A stretch of 64,000 bases of DNA, taken from IMG/VR virus record IMGVR_UViG_3300023257_000007, positions 186,001 through 250,000 of that record, one strand, 5' to 3'. The stretch comes from a virus. Below are positions 38,598 to 53,945 of the stretch, one piece after another. How positions within the stretch are numbered: the stretch's first letter is position 1; each line of letters begins with the position of its first letter. The position numbers and the translations under genes are program-made. The notes under the pieces were generated by a model. The model saw only the letters and a list, made by a program, of their open reading frames with translations. It had not been told where the DNA came from and ran no database searches.

Positions 38598-38903
38598 ATG
38601 AAAAAACATGAAAAATTTATATTATTTAAGGTTGATACTTCAAGGGAAAGTAAGGAAATTCAAGAATTTTTGTTTTCTTTAGGTTATTCTTGGCGTGGAG
38701 ATAATAATATGGAATATTTCTCTGTTGAAATTGGGGCTTATATTTTATTATGTGTTGATAGTAATAATATTAAGAGCAAAAATTGTATTTTTTATGGAAA
38801 TGATAAAATGCAATATGATCAAGAACTTATAAAATCTTATAACATGAATAATTATAAAGATTCTTTATGTTTTATAGAATCATTTAAATTGGGATTATTT
38901 TAA
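38598..38903 (+). CDS. tagged FLFSLGYxW paralogue B, 101 aa (FKLGLF)
   Basis: ILFKVDTSRESKEIQEFLFS, LGYSW, MNNYKDSLCFIESFKLGLF. Tandem duplicate of the preceding gene, each with its own abutting promoter and no Shine-Dalgarno. Confidence 0.65.
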   Translation: MKKHEKFILFKVDTSRESKEIQEFLFSLGYSWRGDNNMEYFSVEIGAYILLCVDSNNIKSKNCIFYGNDKMQYDQELIKSYNMNNYKDSLCFIESFKLGLF

Positions 38904-38931
38904 AATTGAGAACAAACTCCGTATCTTTACA
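38902..38931 (+). promoter_or_regulatory. promoter of repeat RNA copy 1
   Basis: TTGAGAACAAACTCCGTATCTTTA, box at 38922; nearly the same as the preceding promoter. Confidence 0.75.
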
Positions 38932-38990
38932 TAGTTAAAGGGCGGAGAATTTTTATAGGTTCTGGGAGAGTAGACTCCAACTTGCGATAT
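38932..38990 (+). ncRNA. repeated small RNA element, copy 1
   Basis: Directly after a promoter: GGCGGAG, a variable stretch, GAGAGTAGACTCCAACTTGC, then GATAT and a T-run. No open frame. GAG-TAGA-CTC can form a hairpin, or GGAG can pair with CTCC. See copies at 43.6, 49.5, 51.4 and 53.9 kb. Confidence 0.7.
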
Positions 38991-39009
38991 ATTTTTTTTA
39001 ACACAATTT

Positions 39010-39040
39010 TTATTTCTTAGAAGTAATCCGTATCTTTGTT
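39010..39040 (+). promoter_or_regulatory. promoter abutting an ATG (leaderless)
   Basis: TTATTTCTTAGAAGTAATCCGTATCTTTG, box at 39031, ATG 4 nt after it. Confidence 0.75.
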
Positions 39041-39042
39041 AT

Positions 39043-39474
39043 ATGAAAATGAAAGTATTATATATTAAAGCTGAAAACATGAAAGATGGTGATTTTGACA
39101 TTATGTTAAAATTTGTTAATAATAATAAAAATTTAGATTATTATTTAACAGGTATAAATATGGGGGGTATTATGAGAACATTTATATGTATAGCCGTAAA
39201 TGATGATAATTATAATGAGGTTAAAGAAAAATTATTCTCTAAATATAATACACCATCACATATTACTGATTTTCAAAATTATGAAGATTATAAATATCCC
39301 TATTTATCAATTGAAATATCAATGGAAAATGAACATGCAGATCATTTAACTATTCATCCTTTGAATGATGATGATGTAGATGTTAAAAATTTTGAAATAA
39401 TTTATAGTAATATTGATGACATATTTGATGATATTGATATGCATATAACTACAAAAAAACTTGGTTTATCTTAA
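39043..39474 (+). CDS. tagged hypothetical protein, 143 aa (KKLGLS)
   Basis: VLYIKAENMKDGDFDIMLKF at the N-terminus; acidic C-terminal part (NIDDIFDDIDMHITTKKLGL) ends in LGLS, a tail variant. Leaderless arrangement. No GYxW motif. Confidence 0.6.
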   Translation: MKMKVLYIKAENMKDGDFDIMLKFVNNNKNLDYYLTGINMGGIMRTFICIAVNDDNYNEVKEKLFSKYNTPSHITDFQNYEDYKYPYLSIEISMENEHADHLTIHPLNDDDVDVKNFEIIYSNIDDIFDDIDMHITTKKLGLS

Positions 39475-39489
39475 CTAAAAAAAATAATT

Positions 39490-39810
39490 ATGAGAAAATT
39501 TAATTGTATTAAAATAGAAAATGAAGAACATTTAAATGAATGTTATAAAAAGATAATTGATCTTAAAACACATTATCCATATAACACTTTTGTTGATAGA
39601 TTTATTATGATAAAGGGTTATTGTATTGGTTTTGAAATAGAAGAAATAGAAGAAGGAAGATTAATTTTAACATTTTTAACTGATAATGATCTTCAACGAT
39701 TTGATGAATCAAATGAATTAGCTTTTAATTGTAATTATTTTAATGATATTGATTCTTTTGTTGAATATCATAAGATTTATTTTGATTGTAGATCATTAGG
39801 GGTTTTATAA
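39490..39810 (+). CDS. tagged hypothetical protein, 106 aa (RSLGVL)
   Basis: NCIKIENEEHLNECYKKIID, CIGFEIEEIEEGRLILTFL, then YFDCRSLGVL. A tail variant. Probably co-transcribed with the preceding gene, 15 nt away. A GTTTAGAAGGTATTCC promoter follows its stop. Confidence 0.6.
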   Translation: MRKFNCIKIENEEHLNECYKKIIDLKTHYPYNTFVDRFIMIKGYCIGFEIEEIEEGRLILTFLTDNDLQRFDESNELAFNCNYFNDIDSFVEYHKIYFDCRSLGVL

Positions 39811-39813
39811 GAA

Positions 39814-39841
39814 AGTTTAGAAGGTATTCCGTATCTTTGTA
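39814..39841 (+). promoter_or_regulatory. promoter, GTTTAGAAGGTATTCC type
   Basis: TATCTTTG at 39832; fourth copy of this near-identical promoter cassette. Confidence 0.8.
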
Positions 39842-39863
39842 TAAATATTAAAATAATATAATT

Positions 39864-40325
39864 ATGGAATTAGATAAAGCAAGAATAAAAATGAGAGAAT
39901 TGTTATCAAAACATGGTCTTGATAATTGGAGTTTTGATTTTGATAGAGCAGTTAGACGTTTAGGTCAATGTGTTTGGAAAAAGAATAGTATCATGACTCG
40001 AAAAATTACTATGTCTAGAATTATGACTGAAAGTAGAACTGATAAAGAAGTTATTAATACAATGTTACATGAAATAGCACACGCAATAGATTTTGAAACA
40101 AGGGGTAGAAGTGCTCATGATGATGTTTGGAGATCAATTGCATTGAGTATTGGTTGTGATGGTAATAGATCTAGTAATGTTGATGTTGAGGTTTCAGAAA
40201 AGAATTATAAGTGGTTGGCTATATGTCCAGAGCATGGTGTTTTGGGTGGATGGCAAAGAAAACCAAAAGATAATAAAATGTGTAAAAAATGTAAAAGTAA
40301 AATCATAATAAAGGAAAATAAATAA
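39864..40325 (+). CDS. SprT-like zinc metalloprotease
   Basis: N-terminal helix (MRELLSKHGLDNWSFDFDRA), RRLGQCVW, the zinc motif TMLHEIAHAIDF (HExxH), a further His in GRSAHDDVWRSIAL, and a C-terminal zinc ribbon (AICPEH... KMCKKCKSK). This is the SprT/Spartan plan at 153 aa. Relatives act on DNA-protein crosslinks. Followed 1 nt later by an unknown 275-aa gene. Confidence 0.8.
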   Translation: MELDKARIKMRELLSKHGLDNWSFDFDRAVRRLGQCVWKKNSIMTRKITMSRIMTESRTDKEVINTMLHEIAHAIDFETRGRSAHDDVWRSIALSIGCDGNRSSNVDVEVSEKNYKWLAICPEHGVLGGWQRKPKDNKMCKKCKSKIIIKENK

Positions 40326-40326
40326 C

Positions 40327-41154
40327 ATGAAAATAAAAGAAATAATAAGAAAAATATATGATAAAACCGGACATGGATATACTGCTACGGCTATTAGTGT
40401 TTTAAAAAAATCTGGTTTGATGGGTGATAAAACACATCAAAAGATTAAGAACATTGTTGAGAATGAAATTCAAAGATATGAAAAAGAATATTTTGAAAAA
40501 TATAAGTCTTATATTAGTGAGTATAGATATGAATCACCAACTATGATTTTATCAATAATGTATATTGATGGTTTTAAAGGAAAATATACTGATTCTTATA
40601 AGAAGATTCAGAAAGAGATTCAAAGAATTGACACATCAGAATTAAAGTCATATAAATCTTTAATAAAGAAAGCTAAATCTACTGATCATTTGCTAAGTAA
40701 GATATCCCATTATAAAAGAGCATTATCATTTCGAGGGGATAAAAAAATTGAAGAGAAATTGAAAGATTTAGAGGAGGATTTTCACTCAGATCAGATTATA
40801 GAGGATGAGAAGCAATTTTCAGAGAATACTATTCAATTAAAAGATTCCTCTATAATCAAAATTTATCTTGATCCGAATAACAGAAATACTTTGATGATGG
40901 AACAAGAACAAGAAGGTAAAAAAGGTTTTAGGTTAGTTAATCATTTTGCAGCTATACCACCATTGAAAGAAACTACTGACATATTTTGGATTGGTGAAAG
41001 AACTTCAAAAGCAACTGGTTATAAACATAATTCAGAGGCTTTAATAATAATGAGAGATGAAAATGATACAATAAGAATATATTATAAAGGAAGTTTATTA
41101 ATAGAAAATTATTGTGAAGAAGAATTAAAAAAAATTATAAATAAAATTAAATAA
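40327..41154 (+). CDS. hypothetical protein, 275 aa
   Basis: No family recognised. The N-terminus has a YDKTGHGYTATAISVLKKSG segment, followed by a long charged helical part with coiled coil near residues 105-160, and a strand-rich C-terminal domain (GFRLVNHFAAIPPLKETTDI, FWIGERTSKATGYKH). It is probably co-expressed with the SprT-like protease and the next two small genes. Confidence 0.55.
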   Translation: MKIKEIIRKIYDKTGHGYTATAISVLKKSGLMGDKTHQKIKNIVENEIQRYEKEYFEKYKSYISEYRYESPTMILSIMYIDGFKGKYTDSYKKIQKEIQRIDTSELKSYKSLIKKAKSTDHLLSKISHYKRALSFRGDKKIEEKLKDLEEDFHSDQIIEDEKQFSENTIQLKDSSIIKIYLDPNNRNTLMMEQEQEGKKGFRLVNHFAAIPPLKETTDIFWIGERTSKATGYKHNSEALIIMRDENDTIRIYYKGSLLIENYCEEELKKIINKIK

Positions 41155-41162
41155 AACAAATT

Positions 41163-41369
41163 ATGTGGATAACAATTGGAATAATAATAGGATTAGTAAT
41201 AGGTGGTTGGTTAGGATATCAGGCTTGTATGGCAAAATATAGACCTACAGAATTACTTAAATTAGCAAAAATACAAACTGAAATGATTTCAGGTGAAATA
41301 ACACCGGAAAAGGCTTTAAAAGAGATACATCAAATTGAAATTGAACACCCTGAATTGAAAAAGAAATGA
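41163..41369 (+). CDS. small membrane protein, 68 aa
   Basis: ITIGIIIGLVIGGWLGYQAC is an N-terminal glycine-zipper-like transmembrane helix, followed by a short cytoplasmic or periplasmic helical tail (KEIHQIEIEHPELKKK). ATGA overlap with the next gene. Confidence 0.55.
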   Translation: MWITIGIIIGLVIGGWLGYQACMAKYRPTELLKLAKIQTEMISGEITPEKALKEIHQIEIEHPELKKK

Positions 41370-41689
41370 AAAAGTATAAATTTATAACAGAAAGTGATTA
41401 TGGTGATTTGCAACTCATCATTTATTTTGAAGATAGAGATGAATCTATTAAAGTTCAAAATGAAATGATAGAACGTGGTTATTTAAAAATCACAGAGACA
41501 AATACACAAGATAAAGATTTATATCCATTTTCTGTTTGGTTTGAACCTAAAAATAAAATAATGAATGGTGGTCAAAAGAATTCTGAATATATGTTAAGGT
41601 ATGGTAGATCATTACATTCTGATATATTTATGGAGTATATAGATAATCTGGAAGCATTATTTGAGTCTTTAAAAATGGGTTTGTTATAA
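41366..41689 (+). CDS. tagged hypothetical protein, 107 aa (LKMGLL)
   Basis: FITESDYGDLQLIIYFEDRD, a short helix with ERGYLK in the GYxW place, and FESLKMGLL at the end. Ends the SprT operon. Confidence 0.6.
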   Translation: MKKYKFITESDYGDLQLIIYFEDRDESIKVQNEMIERGYLKITETNTQDKDLYPFSVWFEPKNKIMNGGQKNSEYMLRYGRSLHSDIFMEYIDNLEALFESLKMGLL

Positions 41690-41691
41690 TT

Positions 41692-41723
41692 TTTAACTTT
41701 TGAACAAAGTCCGTATATTTGTA
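41692..41723 (+). promoter_or_regulatory. promoter of a tRNA-like RNA
   Basis: TTTTGAACAAAGTCCGTATATTTGTA, TATATTTG at 41714. Confidence 0.8.
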
Positions 41724-41728
41724 TTATC

Positions 41729-41814
41729 ATTAACGGTTACATGTGTCCAACGACACCTTGCAAGAGCGTAATAAGCGATGTCCAGTGTTCGATTCCCTGG
41801 TAGTGGTACAAAAA
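41729..41814 (+). ncRNA. tRNA-like or degenerate tRNA transcript
   Basis: Short non-coding stretch between two promoters. Contains a T-arm-like segment (CAGTG TTCGATT CCCTG) and a GTGTC-caac-GACAC hairpin. A possible acceptor (TCATTAA with GTAGTGG) pairs only partly and no convincing anticodon stem was found. Could be a decayed or very divergent tRNA. Confidence 0.35.
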
Positions 41815-41844
41815 TCACAAAGAAAACAAAACACAAGTATATTT

Positions 41845-41875
41845 TTTATTTAGGAAGGAAGTCCGTATATTTGTA
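41845..41875 (+). promoter_or_regulatory. promoter
   Basis: TTTAGGAAGGAAGTCCGTATATTTGTA, TATATTTG at 41866; drives 41930 and probably the tRNA-Lys. Confidence 0.8.
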
Positions 41876-41929
41876 TAACAATAAAGAAAAATAATAATAT
41901 TAATTTAAAATCTATAGGAGGATATAAAA

Positions 41930-42166
41930 ATGGCAAGAGAAAAATTAGGTAAAGTAGTAGGACAAGTTGGTGGATTCAGAATCAGAATGGAAATGAAAAA
42001 TATCCAAAAAATTGAAACAGACAGATTTGGTAGAAGAAAAGTAACTGAATCTAAAAGATGTTTCACCGGAAAATACGGAGTTTACGCAGGTAGAAACCTT
42101 TGTAAAAATGGTCTAACCAAAGAAAAAGCAATTCAATACGCAAAATCGTATAACAAAGAAAATTAG
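41930..42166 (+). CDS. small basic protein, 78 aa
   Basis: Good ATAGGAGG site. Strongly basic, Gly-rich (KVVGQVGGFRIRMEMKNIQK, TGKYGVYAGRNLCKNG), with a C-terminal KAIQYAKSY helix. No family. It resembles small DNA- or RNA-binding phage proteins in composition. Confidence 0.6.
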   Translation: MAREKLGKVVGQVGGFRIRMEMKNIQKIETDRFGRRKVTESKRCFTGKYGVYAGRNLCKNGLTKEKAIQYAKSYNKEN

Positions 42167-42188
42167 AGCTCCCAGTTGGAGATTCGTT

Positions 42189-42212
42189 CCTCAAGGTTGA
42201 AAGGTCTTGAGG
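42189..42212 (+). other. hairpin between a coding gene and tRNA-Lys
   Basis: CCTCAAG-gttgaaaggt-CTTGAGG without a T-run. Possibly an RNA processing signal separating the mRNA from the tRNA. Confidence 0.5.
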
Positions 42213-42249
42213 GACGTCTTAATTATAATAATAATTATTAAAAATATAT

Positions 42250-42322
42250 GTATCATTAGCTCAGTTGGTAGAGCTTCTGCCTTTTAAGCAGAAAGTCCAG
42301 GGTTCGAGTCCCCGATGGTATA
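42250..42322 (+). tRNA. tRNA-Lys (anticodon TTT)
   Basis: Acceptor GTATCAT pairs with ATGGTAT; D-arm TAGCTCAGTTGGTAGAGC; anticodon stem TCTGC/GCAGA with loop CTTTTAA; T-loop TTCGAGT. CCA is not encoded. A terminator lies 35 nt downstream. Confidence 0.97.
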
Positions 42323-42357
42323 CACAATGTAACCTCCTTTCACATTGAATTAGTACT

Positions 42358-42388
42358 TCCCCACCCGAACAGGTGGGGATTTTTTTTA
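42358..42388 (+). terminator. intrinsic terminator after tRNA-Lys
   Basis: TCCCCACC-cgaaca-GGTGGGGA followed by eight T. Confidence 0.95.
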
Positions 42389-42413
42389 TTAGAAGGATTG
42401 TTGTATCTTTGTA
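42383..42413 (+). promoter_or_regulatory. promoter
   Basis: TTATTAGAAGGATTGTTGTATCTTTGTA, TATCTTTG at 42404; the -33 part begins inside the T-run of the preceding terminator. Confidence 0.75.
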
Positions 42414-42443
42414 TTAGTATAAATTTTAAAAAAGGAGAAAAAA

Positions 42444-42599
42444 ATGAATGAATTAACAAAATTTATTGAATATTTAGAAAAAACTGATATTGAGGATTTT
42501 AAACATCCTGAACAGATTAAAGAATATATTATTGGTATATGTAAATCAATTAAAAAAGATATTATTGATTTTCATCCAATGATGGAGGATACGGAATAG
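42444..42599 (+). CDS. small acidic protein, 51 aa
   Basis: AAAAAGGAG site and a dedicated promoter. MNELTKFIEYLEKTDIEDFK with helical, acidic remainder (DFHPMMEDTE). The MNEL(T/N)K start and leader sequence are repeated at the next gene, so the two share a duplicated 5' region. Confidence 0.6.
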   Translation: MNELTKFIEYLEKTDIEDFKHPEQIKEYIIGICKSIKKDIIDFHPMMEDTE

Positions 42600-42602
42600 G
42601 GT

Positions 42603-42635
42603 TTTTTAAATCAGAACAAATTCCGTATCTTTGTA
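42603..42635 (+). promoter_or_regulatory. promoter
   Basis: TTAAATCAGAACAAATTCCGTATCTTTGTA, TATCTTTG at 42626. Confidence 0.8.
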
Positions 42636-42665
42636 TTAATATAAATTTTAAAAAAGGAGAAAAAA

Positions 42666-42767
42666 ATGAATGAATTAAACAAAATAGCAATAAATTTTAT
42701 AAATATTATAAACACAATTAGTATAGACGCATTTACATTATATATGTATATTGGGTTTTTCATATAG
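42666..42767 (+). CDS. tiny hydrophobic protein, 33 aa
   Basis: MNELNKIAINFINIINTISI then DAFTLYMYIGFFI; about one transmembrane span. The leader and first codons duplicate those of the gene at 42444. Followed by an ATAGGAG site for the next gene. Confidence 0.45.
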   Translation: MNELNKIAINFINIINTISIDAFTLYMYIGFFI

Positions 42768-42778
42768 GAGAAATTAAA

Positions 42779-43012
42779 ATGATAGTAAGTATAAGAATAA
42801 ATAACTGGGAAGATTATTTCAAAATTAAGAAATATCTAATATCACTCAATTTTAAGTGGTTTAGGACAACCTATAGCCCAAAATTTGATTTAATTATACA
42901 CTTATCAAGTGGTAAATTATCATATGATCCAAGAATGAATAAAAATGATAATTATGAATATGCTACTGTAAAAGAAATTATAAGTAAAGGATTCGGATCT
43001 TTTATTTTTTAG
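42779..43012 (+). CDS. array-family protein lacking the tail, 77 aa
   Basis: VSIRINNWEDYFKIKKYLIS, LNFKW (GYxW position), KLSYDPRMNKNDNYEYATVK: the common array fold, but it ends GFGSFIF without the tail. A useful contrast case for the tail family. Confidence 0.55.
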   Translation: MIVSIRINNWEDYFKIKKYLISLNFKWFRTTYSPKFDLIIHLSSGKLSYDPRMNKNDNYEYATVKEIISKGFGSFIF

Positions 43013-43033
43013 AAGATAATCCGTATATTTGTA
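43003..43033 (+). promoter_or_regulatory. promoter of the 43-kb RNA
   Basis: TTTTTTAGAAGATAATCCGTATATTTGTA, TATATTTG at 43024. Confidence 0.85.
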
Positions 43034-43034
43034 T

Positions 43035-43612
43035 TGACACAAGCAGAAACAGGATTGGTCGAATTGCCTGTGTTCTTCGGAACAAACTCGTTACCTATGC
43101 TTTTTTCCTAGAGGTTGGGCGAATTAATAACAATAAACTAGGCGCCGGACAATGCGATATTGTATGATTTTTAAGTAGTGAAATAAGAACTAACTTGGCT
43201 CTCTAACCAGATAGAGTGACTTTCGTAAGATGTTTGAAAGAAAACTATCTAGACTTTTATGTTTCAAGATAACCGGTAATGGAATTAAAAAGTTGCTAAC
43301 ACACAACGCGACAAGGCTTTGTCGCGTGAGATAGATATTCAAGGTAGGAGGTATTAGATACACCGTCTGGACTACAAGTTTGGAAATCAACAAAGTGGTG
43401 GGATGCGAGTGGTTGACCAGTGTTAGAATTAAAGAAGCAGGTTCGAATCCTGTGAATATGGATATAGAAAACAAAGGAGGGTTAATATTCGAGATAGAAT
43501 GGCTCTAGCTTCGGCAGAGTATCGCCTCAGAAATTAAATGAACGGCTATGCTAAATAGCTTCAGTACTTTAATCGAGAAGCCCAATAGGAAATTACTATT
43601 GGGCTTTTTTTA
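43035..43612 (+). ncRNA. large structured non-coding RNA candidate, about 570 nt
   Basis: Bounded by a strong promoter and a strong terminator, with no plausible open frame and a more balanced base composition than its surroundings. Visible elements: GTTCTTCGGAAC hairpin near 43071, a 9-bp hairpin ACGCGACAA-ggct-TTGTCGCGT near 43307, and a tRNA-like 3' part: T-arm GCAGG TTCGAAT CCTGT at 43437 with ATATTCA (43335) complementary to TGAATAT (43453). It does not fit RNase P or tmRNA signatures that I know. May contain an interrupted tRNA. Confidence 0.6.
43579..43612 (+). terminator. intrinsic terminator of the 43-kb RNA
   Basis: AGCCCAATAG-gaaatta-CTATTGGGCT followed by seven T. Confidence 0.95.
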
Positions 43613-43637
43613 TTTGAATAATCTCCGTATATTTGTA
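43606..43637 (+). promoter_or_regulatory. promoter of repeat RNA copy 2
   Basis: TTTTATTTGAATAATCTCCGTATATTTGTA, TATATTTG at 43628, overlapping the terminator T-run. Confidence 0.8.
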
Positions 43638-43642
43638 CTATC

Positions 43643-43705
43643 AAAAGGCGGAGTTTTAAAAGAACCCCGAAGAGTAGACTCCAATTTGCGTTATATATTA
43701 TATAA
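43643..43705 (+). ncRNA. repeated small RNA element, copy 2
   Basis: AAGGCGGAG, variable loop, GAAGAGTAGACTCCAATTTG, CGTTATAT. No open frame; same arrangement behind a promoter as the other copies. Confidence 0.7.
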
Positions 43706-43708
43706 CAT

Positions 43709-43741
43709 TTTTTAATTCAGAATATTATTAGTATCTTTGTA
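43709..43741 (+). promoter_or_regulatory. promoter without an adjacent gene
   Basis: TTTTTTAATTCAGAATATTATTAGTATCTTTGTA, TATCTTTG at 43732. Another promoter follows 90 nt later; the RNA between contains TTACATATTTTTTCTC but no frame. Confidence 0.65.
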
Positions 43742-43807
43742 TTATAAATATAAAATTAGAAATTATAATTACATATTTTTTCTCTTTGAAAAAATTGGGA
43801 GGAATTT

Positions 43808-43838
43808 TTAATTTAAGAAAAATTTCCGTATATTTGTA
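43808..43838 (+). promoter_or_regulatory. promoter
   Basis: TTTAATTTAAGAAAAATTTCCGTATATTTGTA, TATATTTG at 43829; drives 43883. Confidence 0.8.
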
Positions 43839-43882
43839 GTATTAAAATGTTTAGTATAAATTAAATAAAAAACTGAAAAAAT

Positions 43883-44527
43883 ATGGCAAAAGAAAAAAAG
43901 ATTGAAGAAAAAATAGTGGAAAAATTATTAACATCTAAGAAGAAATTAGAAACAGGCAAATGGCTTTATAGAGGATTTGTAGTTGAAAAAAATGGATCAA
44001 AATGGGTGGCTAAAGTTCACGAAGGTTCTAATATTGTTGAAGAAAAATCTGATTCTGTTGTTGATGAATTGATGACATCAGCTAAAAATATTTGTATTAG
44101 TATTGATAAGGTTTTAGGTGATTTAACAGATTCAGAAAAAACTAAACCGAAAAGAGCAATAAAATCAAAAGCATCAAGACTTAAAGATAAAGATGAAAAA
44201 GCTAAATATATTGAAAGAGCGCAAAGAGTAGCTTATGACATTAGAAATGGTTTACAAGTATTATCATTTCTTAATAAGAAAAAATTAAAAGATAATCTTT
44301 TAAGTGATGCTCCGAATATGAGAAAAACATTATCTAATGGTTATAGATTAGGATGGGAAAATGGTTGTTTATATAATGTACCAGAAATAACTGATGAAAT
44401 TAAAGCAATCATAGAAAAGGACAAAGAGTTTATTGAAGAATTAAAAGTGAAACATGAAGATTTAAACATATCATTTGGTATGGAAGATAATAAAATTGAT
44501 ATAGAAGTAACTTATAAAGAAAAATAA
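43883..44527 (+). CDS. hypothetical protein, 214 aa
   Basis: No family recognised. Lys-rich start (MAKEKKIEEKIVEKLLTSKK), a strand-rich section (GKWLYRGFVVEKNGSKWVAK), a basic middle (KTKPKRAIKSKASRLKDKDE) and a C-terminal helical/strand part. Monocistronic with its own promoter and terminator, a layout shared with the HU genes. Perhaps nucleoid-associated. Confidence 0.6.
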   Translation: MAKEKKIEEKIVEKLLTSKKKLETGKWLYRGFVVEKNGSKWVAKVHEGSNIVEEKSDSVVDELMTSAKNICISIDKVLGDLTDSEKTKPKRAIKSKASRLKDKDEKAKYIERAQRVAYDIRNGLQVLSFLNKKKLKDNLLSDAPNMRKTLSNGYRLGWENGCLYNVPEITDEIKAIIEKDKEFIEELKVKHEDLNISFGMEDNKIDIEVTYKEK

Positions 44528-44547
44528 TCTCAATCTTTTTAATATAA

Positions 44548-44577
44548 ACCCCAGTTAATCGACTGGGGTTTTTTTAT
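44548..44577 (+). terminator. intrinsic terminator
   Basis: ACCCCAGT-taatcg-ACTGGGGT followed by seven T. Confidence 0.95.
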
Positions 44578-44602
44578 TTTAAATACTTTCCGTATATTTG
44601 TA
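44571..44602 (+). promoter_or_regulatory. promoter
   Basis: TTTTATTTTAAATACTTTCCGTATATTTGTA, TATATTTG at 44593. Confidence 0.8.
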
Positions 44603-44634
44603 TAACGAAATTAATAATTAAAAAGGAGGAAAAA

Positions 44635-45844: not shown

Positions 45845-46159
45845 ATGGCAAACAAAAAAGACTTAACAAACGCAATCGCTTTAGCAACAGGTAAAACTAA
45901 AAAATCAAGTAAAGACCTAGTTGATGTTATCATGGCATCTATTAAAGCTGAATTATCAAATGGTGAAGGTTCAATCGTGAAATTAGTTAATTTCGGAACA
46001 TTCAAAGTAGTAAACAGAAAAGCAAGAAAAGGTAGAAACCCTAGAACTGGTGAATCAATCAACATACCTTCAAAAAATGTTGTTAGATTTAAAGCTGGTA
46101 AAGCATTGAAAGAAGCAGTTGATTATACTGCCGAAGAAAGAGAAGAATTAGGACTATAA
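45845..46159 (+). CDS. HU/IHF-family DNA-binding protein 2
   Basis: ANKKDLTNAIALATGKTKKS, VKLVNFGTFKVVNRKARKGR, NPRTGESINIPSKNVVRFKA. The real start is the ATG at 45845; the frame is open further upstream but would include promoter sequence. Almost identical to HU1, with synonymous changes throughout, so both are under selection. Confidence 0.95.
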   Translation: MANKKDLTNAIALATGKTKKSSKDLVDVIMASIKAELSNGEGSIVKLVNFGTFKVVNRKARKGRNPRTGESINIPSKNVVRFKAGKALKEAVDYTAEEREELGL

Positions 46160-47533: not shown

Positions 47534-47537
47534 ACAT

Positions 47538-47608: not shown

Positions 47609-47636
47609 CAATTATTAACTTTAAAAAATTTAAAAT

Positions 47637-47923: not shown

Positions 47924-47956
47924 TTTTTAATTAAGAAACAAAATCGTATATTTGTT
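47924..47956 (+). promoter_or_regulatory. promoter of initiator tRNA
   Basis: TTTTTTAATTAAGAAACAAAATCGTATATTTG, box at 47947. The 140 nt upstream (47784-47923) contain no convincing gene. Confidence 0.8.
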
Positions 47957-47997
47957 CTATAATAGAAAATGAAAGATATAAGAATCCAAAAATATAT

Positions 47998-48069
47998 TGC
48001 GAGGTGGAGCAGGGGTAGCTCGCTAGGCTCATAACCTAGAGGCCGTCGGTTCAAATCCGACTCTCGCTA
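47998..48069 (+). tRNA. initiator tRNA-fMet (anticodon CAT)
   Basis: Acceptor pairs GCGAGG with TCTCGC-type sequence but T1 faces T72, so the first pair is open, a hallmark of bacterial initiator tRNAs. D-arm GGTGGAGCAGGGGTAGCTCG is the typical fMet sequence. Anticodon stem CTAGG/CCTAG with loop CTCATAA; it has only two of the three G:C pairs usually next to the initiator loop. T-arm GTCGG TTCAAAT CCGAC. Dedicated promoter and a terminator 60 nt downstream. Confidence 0.9.
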
Positions 48070-48129
48070 CTAAGTAGGTCTATATGGCTTACCGAATATG
48101 TCTCTTAACACTACGGTGTTCAAAAGGAA

Positions 48130-48152
48130 AAGCCCGATAAGGGCTTTTTTTA
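48130..48152 (+). terminator. intrinsic terminator after tRNA-fMet
   Basis: AAGCCC-gataa-GGGCTT followed by a T-run. The 60 nt between the tRNA and this hairpin also contain AACAC-tacg-GTGTT. Confidence 0.9.
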
Positions 48153-48177
48153 TTGGAATATATTCCGTATATTTGTA
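48146..48177 (+). promoter_or_regulatory. promoter of RNA ligase
   Basis: TTTTTATTGGAATATATTCCGTATATTTGTA, TATATTTG at 48168. Confidence 0.85.
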
Positions 48178-48204
48178 TAGTTAAAATAAAAAGTAAAAAG
48201 TATT

Positions 48205-49188
48205 ATGGAAAGAAAATTAGCAACAATAGCAAAAATTAATGACATCAACCCTATTAAAGGAGCTGATGTAATTGAAGTAGCTACTATTCGAGGATGGAAA
48301 GTTGTAGTTAAAAAAGATGAATTCAAAATTGGAGATCTTTGTGTGTATTGTGAAATAGACTCAGTTATGCCTCCAAAAGAAGAATTTAAATTCCTAGAAA
48401 ATAAAAAATATAGGATTAAAACTATTAAACTCAGAGGACAAGTATCTCAAGGTATAGCATTTCCATTGTCTATTTTACCATTAGGTTGGCACTCAATTAT
48501 AGATCAAGATGTAACAGAACTTCTTGAAGTAATTAAATGGGAACCAGTAATACCAGCTTGTTTAGCAGGTAAAATAAAAGGTCTTTTTCCTTCTCATTCT
48601 CTAAAAACAGATGAAGAAAGAATACAAAATCTTATTGAAGAATTTCCTAATTTAAAAACTAAAACATATATAGCAACAGAAAAACTTGATGGTTCTTCTG
48701 CAACATTTTATCTTAAAGATAATATATTTGGTGTATGTTCTAGAAACTTAGATATATTAGAAGATGATACTAATTCATTTTGGAAAGTAGCAAGAGAATT
48801 GAAAATCGAAGAATTAATGAGAGAAAATGGTCTTGATAATTATAACCTCCAAGGAGAACTTATTGGAGAAGGTATACAAAAAAACAAATATAAAATCAAA
48901 GGACAAACAGTAAGATTCTTTAGAATGTTTAATATTAAAACACATTCATTTATAAATTATAGTGACTTTATTTTATTAATTAAAGCAATGGAATTACAAA
49001 CTGTTCCTATTGTAGAAGTTAATTTAGAACTACCTGAAACAATAGATGAACTTCTTAAATATGCTGAAGGATTATCAAAACTTAATAAAAATATACAAAG
49101 AGAAGGTATTGTCTTTGTAGCTGAAGAAACAGAAGATAGAGAATCATTTAAAGTAATATCAAATAAATTTTTATTGAAAAATGAATAA
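48205..49188 (+). CDS. RNA ligase, DRB0094/Rnl5-type
   Basis: The N-terminal OB-like domain (LATIAKINDINPIKGADVIE, GWKVVVKKDEFKIGDLCVYC) precedes the nucleotidyltransferase domain, as in Deinococcus DraRnl. The catalytic motif is ATEKLDGSSATFY (KxDG lysine at about residue 157), then FGVCSRNLD (motif Ia), LQGELIGEGIQKN (motif III/IIIa), and REGIVFVAEE (motif IV) near the C-terminus. It seals RNA ends and probably repairs tRNAs or other RNAs cut by host defences, which fits the adjoining tRNA region. Overlaps the DUF4314 gene by 8 nt. Confidence 0.9.
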   Translation: MERKLATIAKINDINPIKGADVIEVATIRGWKVVVKKDEFKIGDLCVYCEIDSVMPPKEEFKFLENKKYRIKTIKLRGQVSQGIAFPLSILPLGWHSIIDQDVTELLEVIKWEPVIPACLAGKIKGLFPSHSLKTDEERIQNLIEEFPNLKTKTYIATEKLDGSSATFYLKDNIFGVCSRNLDILEDDTNSFWKVARELKIEELMRENGLDNYNLQGELIGEGIQKNKYKIKGQTVRFFRMFNIKTHSFINYSDFILLIKAMELQTVPIVEVNLELPETIDELLKYAEGLSKLNKNIQREGIVFVAEETEDRESFKVISNKFLLKNE

Positions 49189-49375
49189 AGAACTAGAATT
49201 AACAGGAAAACAAGTAAAACTCATATCAATGGATGACCCTTATACTAAATTGAAAAATGGAGATAAAGGTATAATAATCTTTGTCGATGATATAGGTCAA
49301 ATACATGTACAATGGGACAATGGATCATCACTTGCATTAATACCAGGTGAAGATAAGTATGAAATATTAGATTGA
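49181..49375 (+). CDS. DUF4314-family small protein
   Basis: KQVKLISMDDPYTKLKNGDK, GIIIFVDDIGQIHVQWDNGS, SLALIPGEDKYEIL is the complete DUF4314 signature, a small barrel of unknown function common in phages. The overlapping frame with RNA ligase suggests coupled synthesis. The stop codon begins the closing stem of the structured RNA that follows. Confidence 0.85.
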   Translation: MNKELELTGKQVKLISMDDPYTKLKNGDKGIIIFVDDIGQIHVQWDNGSSLALIPGEDKYEILD

Positions 49376-49488
49376 TGGAACTTCCAGAAATGGGCGCTAT
49401 TTCGAGCATAAGATGTGAATTGCCCTGATATCTCTGCAGACAAACCCCTATAAGGGGAGAGAAAATTAGCATTCTTCCATCATTTTTA
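49373..49488 (+). ncRNA. structured 3' RNA closed by TGATGGAA/TTCCATCA
   Basis: An 8-bp stem brackets about 94 nt that contain GGGC/GCCC pairing (around 49392 and 49423) and a nested CTC...CCCC-tataa-GGGG-AGAG hairpin, then TTTTT. So it is a multi-branched 3' structure acting at least as terminator. May be a separate small RNA processed from the RNA ligase/DUF4314 transcript, or a ligand-sensing element. Confidence 0.55.
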
Positions 49489-49516
49489 ATCTTTGAATAA
49501 TTTCCATATCTTTACA
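49484..49516 (+). promoter_or_regulatory. promoter of repeat RNA copy 3
   Basis: TTTTTAATCTTTGAATAATTTCCATATCTTTA, box at 49507. Confidence 0.75.
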
Positions 49517-49521
49517 TAAGT

Positions 49522-49580
49522 AAAGGGCGGGAATTTTTTAGGTTCTGGAAGAGTAGACTCTAATTTATGATATATTCACC
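49522..49580 (+). ncRNA. repeated small RNA element, copy 3
   Basis: AGGGCGGGAATTTTTTAGG, TTCTGGAAGAGTAGACTCTA, ATTTATGATAT. The variable part is closest to copy 1 (shared AGGTTCTGG). No open frame. Confidence 0.7.
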
Positions 49581-49585
49581 CCAAT

Positions 49586-49618
49586 TTTTTATATTCAATA
49601 ATTATCCGTATATTTATA
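49586..49618 (+). promoter_or_regulatory. promoter
   Basis: TTTTTATATTCAATAATTATCCGTATATTTATA, box TATATTTA at 49609. Confidence 0.75.
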
Positions 49619-49640
49619 CAAAATTAAAAAACCTAAAGAA

Positions 49641-49827
49641 ATGAAAAAAAAAATATTTAACACAAAAATTAGAAGAATTAACAACTCGGACTTATAAATA
49701 TAAAAGGACTAAACTTGATGTAATTATGTTTAAACTTAAAGAAGCATTAAGTAATGATGAATTGGCAGATCTATTAGAAATCAGATTAGTAGATATTTTA
49801 GAAGGACAGAAATTGGGTCTATTGTAA
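49641..49827 (+). CDS. tagged protein split at an A10 run (QKLGLL)
   Basis: ATG is followed by ten A. The ATG frame stops after 18 codons, but with nine A the frame reads MKKKYLTQKLEELTTRTYKY and on through ALSNDELADLLEIRLVDILE to GQKLGLL, a complete 61-aa tagged protein. Transcriptional slippage on A10 could make it; otherwise it is a single-base frameshift or a sequencing error. Strong promoter upstream. Confidence 0.55.
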
Positions 49828-49828
49828 T

Positions 49829-49861
49829 TTTTAATTCTTGAAAGATATCCTTATCTTTGTA
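49829..49861 (+). promoter_or_regulatory. promoter
   Basis: TTTTTAATTCTTGAAAGATATCCTTATCTTTGTA, TATCTTTG at 49852. Confidence 0.8.
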
Positions 49862-49884
49862 TAAACAATTAAAGATAAAATATC

Positions 49885-50076
49885 ATGGCAAAAAGAAAAA
49901 GAAAAAGAACAAAAAAAATCAAAGAATTTAAAATAACTTTAGATGACTTTCTAAAAGCTAATCGTATAGGATCTAGAGAGGCAGAATTAGAACAAAATGG
50001 AACTGGTTGGAAATCTAATCGAAAAGCATATAAAAATAAAAAATCATATTCACGCAAAGATAAACACAGAAATTAA
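49885..50076 (+). CDS. very basic small protein, 63 aa
   Basis: MAKRKRKRTKKIKEFKITLD, FLKANRIGSREAELEQNG, KAYKNKKSYSRKDKHRN. More than a third of residues are basic, apparently a nucleic-acid binder. The stop overlaps the next remnant's ATG (TAATG). Confidence 0.6.
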   Translation: MAKRKRKRTKKIKEFKITLDDFLKANRIGSREAELEQNGTGWKSNRKAYKNKKSYSRKDKHRN

Positions 50077-50349
50077 TGGAATTCAATCAATTATCATATC
50101 AAATAATAGTTACGATGAATTAATGGAAGAACTTAAAGGTTTTATTGATTTTAAAGAAAATGATAGTTTACGACCGAATATCGTGACTATAAACAAGATT
50201 TTAAAGCAACATGGGATCATTATGAAGTTTATAAACGTAAAGTTATATGGGATAGTAATGATTATATATTTAATATGAATGAACAGTCTATTAAAGAAAT
50301 AATTAATAAAATTAAAGAAATAATACCATATAAATTAAAACTATTATGA
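50076..50349 (+). pseudogene. frameshifted gene with KLKLL end
   Basis: The ATG frame ends after 15 codons. Shifted frames encode SIIISNNSYDELMEELKGFI then DYKQDFKATWDHYEVYKRKV, and finally EIINKIKEIIPYKLKLL, an end like the shared tail. Two indels (near 50082 and 50170) would restore one ~90-aa protein. Confidence 0.55.
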
Positions 50350-50672
50350 TTAAACTATTAGCAATAAAAATATATTCTAAAACAAGATTATTACAAATAT
50401 TAGATGATCTTAAAAAGAACTATAATATACATAAAACATACAATAATGATTGGGTAGGTTTTAAAGGTATAAGAGAAGGTGGTATATTTGTATATATCAA
50501 TATTGAATCAAATATAAAGTTATATGGTTGGGATTATATTTACAAAGATTATGATAAGGAATATGTACCAAGTACTATCAGCAATGGTTTAAAACACAAA
50601 ACATTAATAATAATAGATAACGATTTACCAATATCAGCAATAATAGAATCAAATAAATTTAACTTAATATAA
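50346..50672 (+). CDS. tagged hypothetical protein, 108 aa (NKFNLI)
   Basis: LAIKIYSKTRLLQILDDLKK, DWVGFKGIREGGIFVYINIE, YGWDYIYKDYDKEYVPSTI: paralogous to the 62.7 kb gene (IAIELYTKKELFKAWKKMLD, NWIGFDYIKKRGGLYIYFDL, TGWDGLYN). C-terminus ESNKFNLI, a tail variant. Start overlaps the remnant's stop (ATGA). Confidence 0.6.
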   Translation: MIKLLAIKIYSKTRLLQILDDLKKNYNIHKTYNNDWVGFKGIREGGIFVYINIESNIKLYGWDYIYKDYDKEYVPSTISNGLKHKTLIIIDNDLPISAIIESNKFNLI

Positions 50673-50685
50673 AAAAGGAGACAAA

Positions 50686-50964
50686 ATGATTGAAACTAAA
50701 ACAAAAGAATTAGTAATAAATAAAACAACTATTAAGAAATCATTAATAATTCATGAATGTAAAAGATGTGGAAATACACACCTAATACATATTGAATATG
50801 AGATTGAAAACATAGATACATCTTGGGAAGAAGAAATGATTGCATTCTCTGATGGTTATTGGTGTGAAAAATGTAATCATGTTATAAGTGAAGATGAAAA
50901 TCATACTTCCACTTATGTTATTACTTCATCTACAAATGATGATTTTGATATAAGAAAAATATAA
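50686..50964 (+). CDS. zinc-ribbon protein, 92 aa
   Basis: AAAAGGAG site. IHECKRCGNTHLIHIEYEIE and GYWCEKCNHVISEDENH give two CxxC knuckles about 40 residues apart. No family name. Directly precedes tRNA-Leu, probably on one transcript. Confidence 0.65.
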   Translation: MIETKTKELVINKTTIKKSLIIHECKRCGNTHLIHIEYEIENIDTSWEEEMIAFSDGYWCEKCNHVISEDENHTSTYVITSSTNDDFDIRKI

Positions 50965-50965
50965 T

Positions 50966-51049
50966 GCCAAAATGGCGAAATAGGTAGACGCGCCAGGTTT
51001 AGAACCTGGTGTCCATTAGGACGTGTGGGTTCGAGTCCCACCTTTGGTA
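50966..51049 (+). tRNA. tRNA-Leu (anticodon TAG)
   Basis: Acceptor GCCAAAA/CTTTGGT (one mismatch at the base); anticodon stem CCAGG/CCTGG with loop TTTAGAA; long class II variable arm; T-arm GTGGG TTCGAGT CCCAC. Confidence 0.96.
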
Positions 51050-51065
51050 CAAAATAATTAAAAAT

Positions 51066-51380
51066 ATGAAAAATATAGAAGAATATTATTTTATAACAAT
51101 TGAAACTAAAAAATGTAACAATGGAAATATTAATGAAATATTAGACTATTGTATAAAAATAGGACTTCAACTTCAGTATCCACGGCAAAGCTACGAAACT
51201 GATGAATATTTAGTAATGTGTTTCAAAAGTTATCATAAAGCAATTGCTAATTGTGATGCTGGTATAGTTTACGGAACTAATGATTTATTAGAAGAACTAG
51301 ATTATATGTTATCACCAGAAGAATTTTTATCTGGTGAATATGACTACTTATTCGATGCAGGAAAATTAAACTTAATTTAA
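51066..51380 (+). CDS. tagged hypothetical protein, 104 aa (GKLNLI)
   Basis: Start at 51066, since the in-frame start at 51009 lies within tRNA-Leu. YYFITIETKKCNNGNINEIL, IGLQLQYPRQSY, then YLFDAGKLNLI, a tail variant. Confidence 0.6.
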   Translation: MKNIEEYYFITIETKKCNNGNINEILDYCIKIGLQLQYPRQSYETDEYLVMCFKSYHKAIANCDAGIVYGTNDLLEELDYMLSPEEFLSGEYDYLFDAGKLNLI

Positions 51381-51397
51381 AAATATAACATTTAAAC

Positions 51398-51430
51398 TTT
51401 TTATTCCAGAATAATCTCCGTATATTTGTA
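51398..51430 (+). promoter_or_regulatory. promoter of repeat RNA copy 4
   Basis: TTTATTCCAGAATAATCTCCGTATATTTGTA, TATATTTG at 51421. Confidence 0.8.
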
Positions 51431-51437
51431 CTATAAT

Positions 51438-51495
51438 AAAGGCTGAGAGATTAAACTCCCCCAGAAGAGTAGACTCCAACTTGCGTTATATCCCC
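51438..51495 (+). ncRNA. repeated small RNA element, copy 4
   Basis: AAGGCTGAGAGATTAAACTC, CCCCAGAAGAGTAGACTCCA, ACTTGCGTTATAT. Here GGCGGAG is GGCTGAG, while GAG still matches CTC. No open frame. Confidence 0.7.
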
Positions 51496-51528
51496 GCACA
51501 CAAGAATAATATATACCAATAAACAGAT

Positions 51529-51567
51529 TCGTGATTCGACTGCTTGCGTCAAAGCCTCGAATCACGA
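51529..51567 (+). other. long perfect hairpin downstream of RNA copy 4
   Basis: TCGTGATTCGA and its exact complement TCGAATCACGA flank a 17-nt loop (CTGCTTGCGTCAAAGCC). Weak T-content afterwards, so either an unusual terminator or a separate RNA element in the gene-free stretch 51.38-51.80 kb. Confidence 0.7.
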
Positions 51568-51621
51568 TCATGTTGATATATCTAAGTTACATGTTTAAAT
51601 TCAATTTTATTACATTTAAGT

Positions 51622-51653
51622 TTTTTTACCTGAAAAAAATCCGTATATTTGTA
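51622..51653 (+). promoter_or_regulatory. promoter upstream of HU3 (distal)
   Basis: TTTTTTTACCTGAAAAAAATCCGTATATTTGTA, TATATTTG at 51644. A CTTGAAAATTTCAAG inverted repeat follows at 51684, a possible operator. Confidence 0.75.
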
Positions 51654-51718
51654 TAACAAGATTGGAAATAATCTTACACTTTTCTTGAAAATTTCAAGAA
51701 ATAAAACTTTAAAAATAT

Positions 51719-51751
51719 TTTTAATGTAAGAAAAATTTCACTATATTTGTA
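51719..51751 (+). promoter_or_regulatory. promoter of HU-like gene 3 (proximal)
   Basis: TTTTTAATGTAAGAAAAATTTCACTATATTTGTA, TATATTTG at 51742. Two tandem promoters, as for HU1. Confidence 0.75.
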
Positions 51752-51801
51752 TATAACAATTAAGAAAAATTATTTATTAACCTTTTAAAACCTTAAAGAC
51801 T

Positions 51802-52110
51802 ATGGCAAACAGAAAAGACCTTATCAATGGTATCGCATCAGCGACCGGTAAAACAAAAAAAGATTCTAAAATCGCTTTAGAAGCAATGCTTTCAATTATG
51901 AAAAAAGAATTAGGCGATGGCGGAGAAATTAAACTTGTAAATTTTGGTACCTTTAAAATCGTAGCAAGAAAAGCTCGAAAAGGAAGAAATCCTAGAACAG
52001 GTGAATCAATCAACATTCCTGCAAAGAATGTAGTTAAATTTAAAGCTGGTAAAGGCCTTAAAGAAGCGGCTGATTACACAGCAGAAGAAAGAGCTGAATT
52101 AGGACTATAA
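51802..52110 (+). CDS. HU/IHF-family DNA-binding protein 3
   Basis: ANRKDLINGIASATGKTKKD, GEIKLVNFGTFKIVARKARK, GRNPRTGESINIPAKNVVKF. More diverged from HU1 and HU2 than these are from each other (shorter loop GDGGEIKL, ADYTAEERAEL end). Could form heterodimers with them or act at a different time. Monocistronic with terminator. Confidence 0.95.
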   Translation: MANRKDLINGIASATGKTKKDSKIALEAMLSIMKKELGDGGEIKLVNFGTFKIVARKARKGRNPRTGESINIPAKNVVKFKAGKGLKEAADYTAEERAELGL

Positions 52111-52130
52111 ACCTAATAATTCTATAATAA

Positions 52131-52158
52131 AAAGAGGATTTATTAATCCTCTTTTTTA
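52131..52158 (+). terminator. intrinsic terminator after HU3
   Basis: AAAGAGGATT-tatt-AATCCTCTTT followed by T. Confidence 0.9.
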
Positions 52159-52210
52159 TTGCGATAAACACTATTTAGATTTAGTCTAAATAAAAATAAT
52201 AATTCAAATT

Positions 52211-52242
52211 ATTATATTAAGAAGATTATCCCTATATTTAAT
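52211..52242 (+). promoter_or_regulatory. promoter
   Basis: ATTATATTAAGAAGATTATCCCTATATTTAA, box TATATTTA at 52233. Confidence 0.6.
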
Positions 52243-52259
52243 AAATAAATTAAAAAATT

Positions 52260-52337
52260 ATGCAAAAAGTAGAAATAATATTAAGTGTGGTGGATATGGA
52301 TTGTTTCATTAAAAATAATAATAACAATTATGATTAA
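52260..52337 (+). CDS. possible 25-aa leader peptide
   Basis: MQKVEIILSVVDMDCFIKNN, then Asn-rich, stop. It overlaps the start of the next gene by 8 nt and could couple its translation. Weak evidence. Confidence 0.25.
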   Translation: MQKVEIILSVVDMDCFIKNNNNNYD

Positions 52338-52962
52338 AATAGGAGAAAAGAAAATAATACATAAAGATTGTATATACTTTGAAAATAGTATATGTTTTGG
52401 AGATGGCGATACATATAGTACCGTTAAATATGAAATACCTAACAATGAAGTAGGACACAATACAATTTTACTTGCATTATTCTTAGGATATTATGATGAA
52501 TATTCAGATGGAGGTATAAAAAATCTACCAAATTGGATTCAAGATGAATTAAAAACATTAGACCTTCTAATTCTAAATAGATGGAATATAAATAAAAAAA
52601 CAAATGTTAAAGATACAGATGAAAGAGAACTTATGTATATCTTTAATGATTCTGAAGAACATTCAGGATATTTTGGTTGGGTTGATGGTACAGATATATA
52701 TTATTATGATAAAGATGGTGTATCACATGATATTGAAATATTTGGTATATCATTCGATAAACAAACTAATCATACAGCAATAGATATAATGCTTAATATA
52801 TATGCATGGTTTCTAAGTAAGTGCAAAGAAATAACAATGGAAAAATTTAAAGACTTAGTAAGATTTGAATATAGAGTAAAATTCAAGGAAATAATAGAGG
52901 ACAAACCCGAACTAAAAGACCTTAAAATTAAAATAGAAGCCGCTAACCTTGGCTTATTATAA
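52330..52962 (+). CDS. tagged protein with YYYDKDGVS motif, 210 aa (NLGLL)
   Basis: Start at 52330 (MIKIGEKKIIHKDC) preferred over 52285, whose extra residues look non-coding. CFGDGDTYSTVKYEIPNNEV and DIYYYDKDGVSHDIEIFGIS align in pattern with the 36.1 kb protein (GDADGDTTEKIDIPLNN, LYYIDEYGVKHETKI) and partly with the 31.4 kb one. C-terminus EAANLGLL. Largest tagged protein here. Confidence 0.65.
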   Translation: MIKIGEKKIIHKDCIYFENSICFGDGDTYSTVKYEIPNNEVGHNTILLALFLGYYDEYSDGGIKNLPNWIQDELKTLDLLILNRWNINKKTNVKDTDERELMYIFNDSEEHSGYFGWVDGTDIYYYDKDGVSHDIEIFGISFDKQTNHTAIDIMLNIYAWFLSKCKEITMEKFKDLVRFEYRVKFKEIIEDKPELKDLKIKIEAANLGLL

Positions 52963-53014
52963 TATTGGTTTGCCATAACTCCAAGTTATCTGAAAATGTA
53001 CAATGAGTAGGCAC

Positions 53015-53043
53015 AACCCCACCTTTAAAGGTGGGGTTTTTTT
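53015..53043 (+). terminator. intrinsic terminator
   Basis: AACCCCACC-tttaaa-GGTGGGGTT followed by T-run. Confidence 0.95.
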
Positions 53044-53070
53044 ATTTAGAAGAATTTCCTTACCTTTATT
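53038..53070 (+). promoter_or_regulatory. promoter
   Basis: TTTTATTTAGAAGAATTTCCTTACCTTTATT; weak -7 (TACCTTTA at 53061). Confidence 0.55.
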
Positions 53071-53090
53071 TAAATTAAAAAGAAAAAATT

Positions 53091-53192
53091 ATGTTAGAAT
53101 ATACAAAAAATGGAGTAATTATAAGTGGTCAATTTCATTCACTTGAGAGCATCATCAGAAAAGTAAACCAAATGAAGAAATTGATGAACTAA
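53091..53192 (+). CDS. small protein, 33 aa
   Basis: MLEYTKNGVIISGQFHSLES, then IIRKVNQMKKLMN. Looks like the start of a larger protein; the continuing DNA (ELTKKWKV, EYEHTREI) in another frame suggests possible truncation. Confidence 0.35.
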   Translation: MLEYTKNGVIISGQFHSLESIIRKVNQMKKLMN

Positions 53193-53363
53193 CAAAGAAA
53201 TGGAAAGTATGAAAAAAGAATATGAACATACGAGAAATTAACAAATTTGGACCAACACTAATTAAATAAAGAAATGTAATTTTTTAATTAAACAAATTTA
53301 CTATTGTAAAATATAAATCATAATATTTGATATGTTAATCGGTTAAAAAACAAATTAAAAATT

Positions 53364-53825
53364 ATGATTTTAACAATAATTATTACAACCTTAGCAAGCG
53401 TATTATCAACTTTGGTGGTTGGCTATTTTATATGGTCAGGTATTAGGGCACGTAAGTTAAATCAAAAGGTCAAGGATAATACATTAAGTATTACACAAAA
53501 TGAAAGATATTGTCAAGATGCAGATGATTCACTTAGTGAATCTATAGATGAAGTGAATATTCGTGTTGATAATAATGTAAATGAATTAAGTGAAAGAATT
53601 CATTCTATGTATGGTCAGAATTCAGATAATAGAGATGAATTAGATAGAAAAATTCATAAAGAATTAGATAAAAGATTTGATAAAGTTTGGCAAACAATTC
53701 AAAATAATTCTTTATTCCAAAAGTATAATATTATAACTGCGTCGGGAAATATTGATTCAGATAAAGTTACAAAACTTGCTATTGAGAATGATGGTGAAGC
53801 CGTGAAAGATGAAGAAATAAAATAA
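53364..53825 (+). CDS. membrane-anchored coiled-coil protein, 153 aa
   Basis: LTIIITTLASVLSTLVVGYF is an N-terminal transmembrane helix, then a long coiled coil (residues ~35-115: VKDNTLSITQNERYCQDADD, NNVNELSERIHSMYGQNSDN) and an acidic end. Topology resembles phage spanin-like or anti-fusion proteins, but no lipoprotein partner is seen. Confidence 0.6.
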   Translation: MILTIIITTLASVLSTLVVGYFIWSGIRARKLNQKVKDNTLSITQNERYCQDADDSLSESIDEVNIRVDNNVNELSERIHSMYGQNSDNRDELDRKIHKELDKRFDKVWQTIQNNSLFQKYNIITASGNIDSDKVTKLAIENDGEAVKDEEIK

Positions 53826-53852
53826 GAAATATAACTGATTAACAATCAAATA

Positions 53853-53886
53853 TTTTTTATATTAGAAGAAAATCCGTATCTTTATA
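53853..53886 (+). promoter_or_regulatory. promoter of repeat RNA copy 5
   Basis: TTTTTTATATTAGAAGAAAATCCGTATCTTTATA, box at 53877. Confidence 0.75.
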
Positions 53887-53891
53887 CTATT

Positions 53892-53945
53892 AAAAAAGGC
53901 TGAGGATTTAAACTTCCCTAGAAGAGTAGACTTCAACATGCAAAA
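53892..53945 (+). ncRNA. repeated small RNA element, copy 5
   Basis: AAAAGGCTGAGGATTTAAAC, TTCCCTAGAAGAGTAGACTT, CAACATGC. The CTC is CTT here, still able to pair with GAG by G-U. No open frame. Confidence 0.65.

Follow-up and report, generated by a model that had tools for sequence, protein, structure and literature searches.

Two hairpins, together termed put, lie directly after phage promoters in HK022 and act in cis on a long operon, while decoy RNAs of the CsrB and ToxI type titrate proteins by means of repeated RNA units. In Bacteroides, multicopy sRNA families with sigma-ABfr promoters are known, among them FopS/GibS, in which many paralogous chromosomal sRNAs per genome combine a constant single-stranded part, a 5' seed, with a variable remainder and one terminator hairpin (PMC11697453). 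RNA anti-CRISPRs (Racrs) have been described as solitary repeat units behind promoters (PMC10651486).

The element considered here, of which five copies were found in a 64,000-nt stretch of viral DNA (the window), resembles each of these systems in part. Like FopS/GibS, it is present as several paralogs behind Bacteroidetes-type promoters and has a constant single-stranded part beside variable sequence, yet it is phage-borne and lacks the layout of a 5' seed followed by a single terminator hairpin. Like the Racrs, it is short, phage-encoded, promoter-linked and non-coding, with titration as a likely mode of action; unlike them, it has no constant repeat, reaches at most nine diverged copies per genome, and has a core that does not recur in the bacterial genomes searched. 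With put it shares two hairpins right behind phage promoters, but in half of the cases the gene faced by the copy is on the opposite strand. The idea of protein titration with repeated RNA units is held in common with CsrB and ToxI; here, however, each unit is a gene in its own right behind a promoter of its own, and neither a GGA-loop array nor tandem pseudoknot repeats are present.

Five promoter-linked copies in the window

The window contains AGAGTAGACT at exactly five places, all of them on the plus strand (38967, 43671, 49550, 51466 and 53923), and a scan of the whole 348,222-b record of this giant bacterial virus with the core pattern gave no forward match besides these five. Each is part of an element of ~59 nt recovered by a covariance model (cmsearch) with E-values from about 1e-15 to 6e-10, the window copies being part of the training set of that model and the homologues in other records having been found independently; the next-best match in the window has an E-value of 0.88. 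The five copies reported in the initial annotation are therefore borne out. The features of each copy, including the hairpin P2 described below, are as follows.

38922..38929, plus strand: copy 1 promoter -7 box TATCTTTA, of the Bacteroidetes type TAnnTTTG, from sequence
38934..38993, plus strand: copy 1 small RNA element (cmsearch 59.5 bits, E 1.3e-15)
38943..38965, plus strand: copy 1 P2 hairpin, closing pair C-G, arms AGAA/TTCT, from covariation across homologues
38967..38985, plus strand: copy 1 conserved core AGAGTAGACTCCAACTTGC, from sequence
43628..43635, plus strand: copy 2 promoter -7 box TATATTTG, from sequence
43639..43697, plus strand: copy 2 small RNA element (cmsearch 52.3 bits, E 2.2e-13)
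43649..43669, plus strand: copy 2 P2 hairpin
43671..43689, plus strand: copy 2 conserved core
3' of the copy 2 element, plus strand: copy 2 tail, hairpin GTTATATATTATATAAC and T-run
49507..49514, plus strand: copy 3 promoter -7 box TATCTTTA, from sequence
49518..49576, plus strand: copy 3 small RNA element, the most diverged (CTCTAATTTATG; cmsearch 41.1 bits, E 6.2e-10)
49528..49548, plus strand: copy 3 P2 hairpin
49550..49568, plus strand: copy 3 conserved core
51421..51428, plus strand: copy 4 promoter -7 box TATATTTG, from sequence
51434..51492, plus strand: copy 4 small RNA element (cmsearch 57.8 bits, E 4.6e-15)
51443..51464, plus strand: copy 4 P2 hairpin (CTG..CAG, GAG..CTC)
51466..51484, plus strand: copy 4 conserved core
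53877..53884, plus strand: copy 5 promoter -7 box TATCTTTA, from sequence
53891..53949, plus strand: copy 5 small RNA element, CTTC replacing CTCC (cmsearch 57.2 bits, E 6.9e-15)
53900..53921, plus strand: copy 5 P2 hairpin (CT..AG, GGA..TCC)
53923..53941, plus strand: copy 5 conserved core

Two pairs, copies 1 and 3 and copies 4 and 5, stand out as more similar in sequence, as expected of duplicates drifting under structural constraint. The absence of a reading frame was also confirmed: an ATG frame of 55 aa (43548-43715) overlaps copy 2 alone, no frame is conserved among the copies, and a coding function was rejected. Nor are the elements tRNA or tmRNA genes, as ARAGORN calls none at these positions.

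Consistent with the promoter linkage that had been claimed, a TAnnTTT(G/A) box, the -7 element of Bacteroidetes promoters, is located 10-15 nt upstream of every window copy. Since the region is rich in TAnnTTT-type promoters, such a promoter is unremarkable by itself, and it is the conserved ~59-nt block behind it that stands out. On the strength of these promoters, the small RNAs are predicted to be transcribed. An extended form around TCCGTATATTTGTA is common to the phage promoters between 38500 and 55500; its GAA-rich box is no more than ~11 nt upstream, a spacing that differs from the usual host arrangement.

Several other features of the window were recorded in passing. A stretch of ~570 nt (43020-43612) that has a separate promoter, contains a T-arm-like GGTTCGAATCC and bears a strong terminator (GCCCAATAG..CTATTGGGC-T7) looks like a large non-coding RNA and receives no Rfam or ARAGORN call; ARAGORN likewise makes no call at 41720-41810, where a promoter precedes a sequence resembling a degenerate tRNA (TGTTCGATTCCCTGG). 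Immediately 5' of copy 3, GATGGAA...TTCCATC closes a possibly structured stretch of ~110 nt (49376-49487). Inverted repeats built like TTATTTAGA-N4-TCTAAATAA, which might serve as a regulator box, are found near the small RNA genes at 52160, 53947 and 54290, as well as 3' of the elements in five loci from other records (L035, L044, L053, L075 and L119). Protein-coding genes include two HU/IHF-like paralogues (45845-46159 and 51802-52110), an RNA ligase among tRNA genes (48205-49188), and, on the minus strand at 21940-23112, a 390-aa thymidylate synthase. The Pfam match of this enzyme extends over residues 6-390 although the profile has 266 positions, which points to a large insert, perhaps an intein or an additional domain.

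Relatives in other phages

A covariance-model search over phage genomes, proposed in the initial annotation as a check, matched 27 of 27 virus records with one to nine copies in each. Four pattern scans of IMG/VR yielded 36, 75, 80 and 21 stretches, the 80 stretches of the third list corresponding to ~68 different contigs by a hand count of contig names, and the distinct elements collected number 137 in total. Many of the relatives also carry Bacteroidetes-type promoters; within the loci collected, the core (at most four mismatches) accompanied by an upstream TAnnTTT(G/A) box was encountered 75 times in the forward sequence versus 0 times in the reversed sequence.

Among named phages searched with variants of the element, the only credible matches were the cultured Tenacibaculum phage Larrie, with four intergenic copies, and LR745206.1, an uncultured phage of 634,780 b with one copy confirmed by the model. 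The Larrie paper reports no tRNA, and a term search of its text brought up no mention of such an RNA (PMC10013915). Across 84,980 bacterial and archaeal genomes, the 19-nt core was matched once, in a contig of one metagenome-assembled genome; this contig bears three copies, as expected of a phage contig. A model search of 100 genomes around that match returned the same contig and one weak match unconfirmed by eye, and no copies were found in plasmids. At the gathering score, Rfam 15 yielded tRNAs only in the window and no family at the elements, a relaxed Rfam search of a Larrie stretch and of one further locus (L050) gave no plausible match over the elements, and a literature text search for the core retrieved only unrelated papers among those listed.

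RNA fold and covariation

From 5' to 3', the layout comprises the promoter, an optional hairpin P1, GGG (at times GUG or AGG), the hairpin P2, AAGAGUAGACUCC, a 3' segment of the form (A/G)AC-CU(A/G)C or (A/G)(A/U)CACG(U/C)C, and a tail. The tail is usually U-rich or an A/U-hairpin, and a T-run is often present 3' of the element; a clear terminator is missing in some copies. Directly 3' of P2, GUAGACUCC is near-invariant across the elements, a conservation that is inflated because the core belonged to the search patterns, whereas P1 and P2 lay outside them. The constant part of the element measures only ~9-17 nt, and the arms of P2 have no constant sequence. In three loci (L119, L121 and L165), a second 3' type, CACG(U/C)C(C/U)AUA(C/U)G..., replaces CCUACCUUAUAUUUUU and can in part form CACGU-CCAU-ACGUG.

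The closing pair of P2 joins the base after GGG to the base standing two positions ahead of AGAG. Of 85 elements, 52 have C-G here, the other 33 have U-A, and no other combination occurs; in an earlier set, 71 of 71 were paired versus 56 expected (z 9.5). The whole P2 helix attains a covariation score of 0.334, versus 0.143 +/- 0.012 in shuffles (0 of 500 reach 0.334) and at most 0.092 in slid versions; the alignment scored was fitted to the model and thus leans to structure, while the closing-pair counts and those for the third pair of P1 are independent of that alignment. P1, with the form GUN-stem-N'AC at the 5' end, is present in many relatives and absent where GGG falls within ~15 nt of the promoter, as it does in all five window copies. 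Its third pair is A-U in 15, U-A in 14 and C-G in 11 of 42 cases, with two mismatches, such that 40 of 42 are standard pairs versus 18 expected. In excess over shuffles, the stems reach z 6.1 (P1) and z 10.7 (P2). Folded one sequence at a time, the window copies give weak signals (z +0.5 to -3.0).

At the level of sequence comparison, covariation among homologues demonstrates the fold of the RNA, composed of P2 and, in many relatives, P1. The initial annotation had proposed a common RNA structure that would stand or fall with covariation in homologues, and this proposal is strongly supported, albeit with different helices from those suggested. The GAG/CTC hairpin it placed in AGAGTAGACT shows 0 double-sided changes among 103 distinct homologues, equal to shuffles, and its 5' side is broken without compensation in GACUAGACUCC, GCGUAGACUCC and GAUUAGACUCC; the change of CTC to CTT, read as pairing-preserving variation, amounts to one single G-U event. 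The variable part of 20-25 nt, thought to be target-specific, is instead the covarying hairpin P2, and nothing favours target specificity. Two further pairings were discarded: GGG with the 3' CCU segment does no better than shuffles, and a long-range helix between the 5' end and the tail is weak and inconsistent in register.

Candidate modes of action

The reading placed first, to which an even chance is accorded, is that the five copies are paralogs, each encoding a free-standing phage small RNA that titrates a conserved host factor in trans. Each copy would constitute an RNA gene of ~60-80 nt; as the sequences show, it follows a Bacteroidetes-type promoter, and its bulged hairpin P2 presents the near-invariant GUAGACUCC followed by the more variable (R)ACCURC. 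The RNAs would be transcribed in high dose, with several loci providing gene dosage, and would act in trans, and the fixed core together with the oriented closing pairs would be the surface that a conserved host factor recognises. This factor is most likely a protein, for example one involved in RNA binding, translation, RNA decay or defence, which the phage would occupy or titrate during takeover or counter-defence. Judged from sequence, large amounts of the RNA are probably produced during infection, with a host component as the binding partner. The presence of several separate copies per genome fits dose-dependent titration, and the oriented, position-specific pair constraints rank protein binding above RNA regulation; specifically, strict Y:R orientation and an invariant core would suit a surface that binds a protein or ligand better than they would a plain antisense seed. 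The preferred reading is thus a decoy or inhibitor RNA, with antisense regulation as the main rival.

That rival, in which the core is a single-stranded seed pairing with host or phage RNA and stabilised by the hairpins, as in the multicopy FopS sRNAs, is possible though rather unlikely. An unpaired conserved stretch next to hairpins is the usual sRNA layout, and in one of two rRNA operons the core pairs with 16S rRNA at TTGGAGTCTGC over 11 nt including one G-U. This level of match, however, is reached by 3% of shuffled 11-mers and is absent in the other operon, the core is nowhere a perfect 16S complement, and antisense action on helix 42 of 16S rRNA is therefore not convincingly beyond chance; phage mRNAs were set aside as targets as well, these phages showing no enrichment for the complement of the core. 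The oriented closing pairs and the internal-loop pattern of P1 also exceed the needs of a seed. As for FopS itself, its published consensus GTGTTTTTCATAGTATTAGATTTAAGGTTAACAAA (the R1' seed), compared by eye with the core and the 5' parts, shows no resemblance, and no Rfam family reaches cut-off over the window copies, the FopS structure having been deposited in Rfam by its authors (PMC11697453).

That the copies are Racrs, solitary decoys mimicking CRISPR repeats, is improbable. The element does resemble them in being short and standing alone immediately 3' of a promoter in viral DNA, but its hairpin arms are without fixed sequence around a brief constant part, and the single match of the 19-nt core in the bacterial and archaeal genomes speaks against a widespread CRISPR repeat. 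A Racr would also have to be similar to a CRISPR repeat in sequence and structure.

About as improbable is a cis-acting leader of its own transcript, be it a riboswitch, an attenuator or a put-like antitermination RNA, as might be suggested by the position immediately 3' of a promoter, the frequent T-run, and the likewise promoter-proximal two-hairpin RNA of HK022. Of 97 elements with a predicted next gene, identified by simple ORF calls, 50 are followed by a gene on the opposite strand (median ~95 nt) and 47 by one on the same strand, and 32 of the latter have a further TAnnTTTG box between element and gene. In Larrie, where every gene annotated near the copies is a minus-strand gene, three of the four elements have the plus orientation, and two elements converge across a gap of 14 nt. 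Neither a constant downstream gene nor a constant orientation was found, and clustering of the neighbourhoods for a partner protein returned ordinary accessory families only, those of the window including a SprT-like one. Because the opposite strand is about as frequent as the same strand, the elements are better regarded as independent transcription units than as leaders, in keeping with the initial annotation, and the convergent, gene-opposed copies of Larrie likewise argue against a cis function. Finally, it is scarcely credible that promoter and repeat together form a dispersed DNA element with no role as RNA: multiple copies with similar flanking promoters would fit, but compensatory base-pair changes in P1 and P2 are needless in double-stranded DNA and no terminal repeats were seen.

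With an autonomous promoter, independence of neighbouring genes and a conserved secondary structure, the element has the features of a trans-acting phage sRNA, and the best reading of these sequences is a new RNA family within the known broad kind of phage-encoded small RNA. More tentatively, it may represent a new class of RNA inhibitor of Bacteroidetes phages, a multi-dose decoy or aptamer that would disable a conserved host protein or a defence signal molecule by means other than CRISPR-repeat mimicry. Phage-specific structured small RNAs are seldom recognised, and none with this core came up in Rfam or the literature searched; the family ranges from phages of 77 kb up to a 634-kb genome. 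Bacteroidetes hosts are generally without Hfq. Given a cultured phage-host pair, Larrie on Tenacibaculum, the function is directly testable, and if the RNA does titrate a host factor, it would represent a widespread form of RNA-based phage control of Bacteroidetes hosts.
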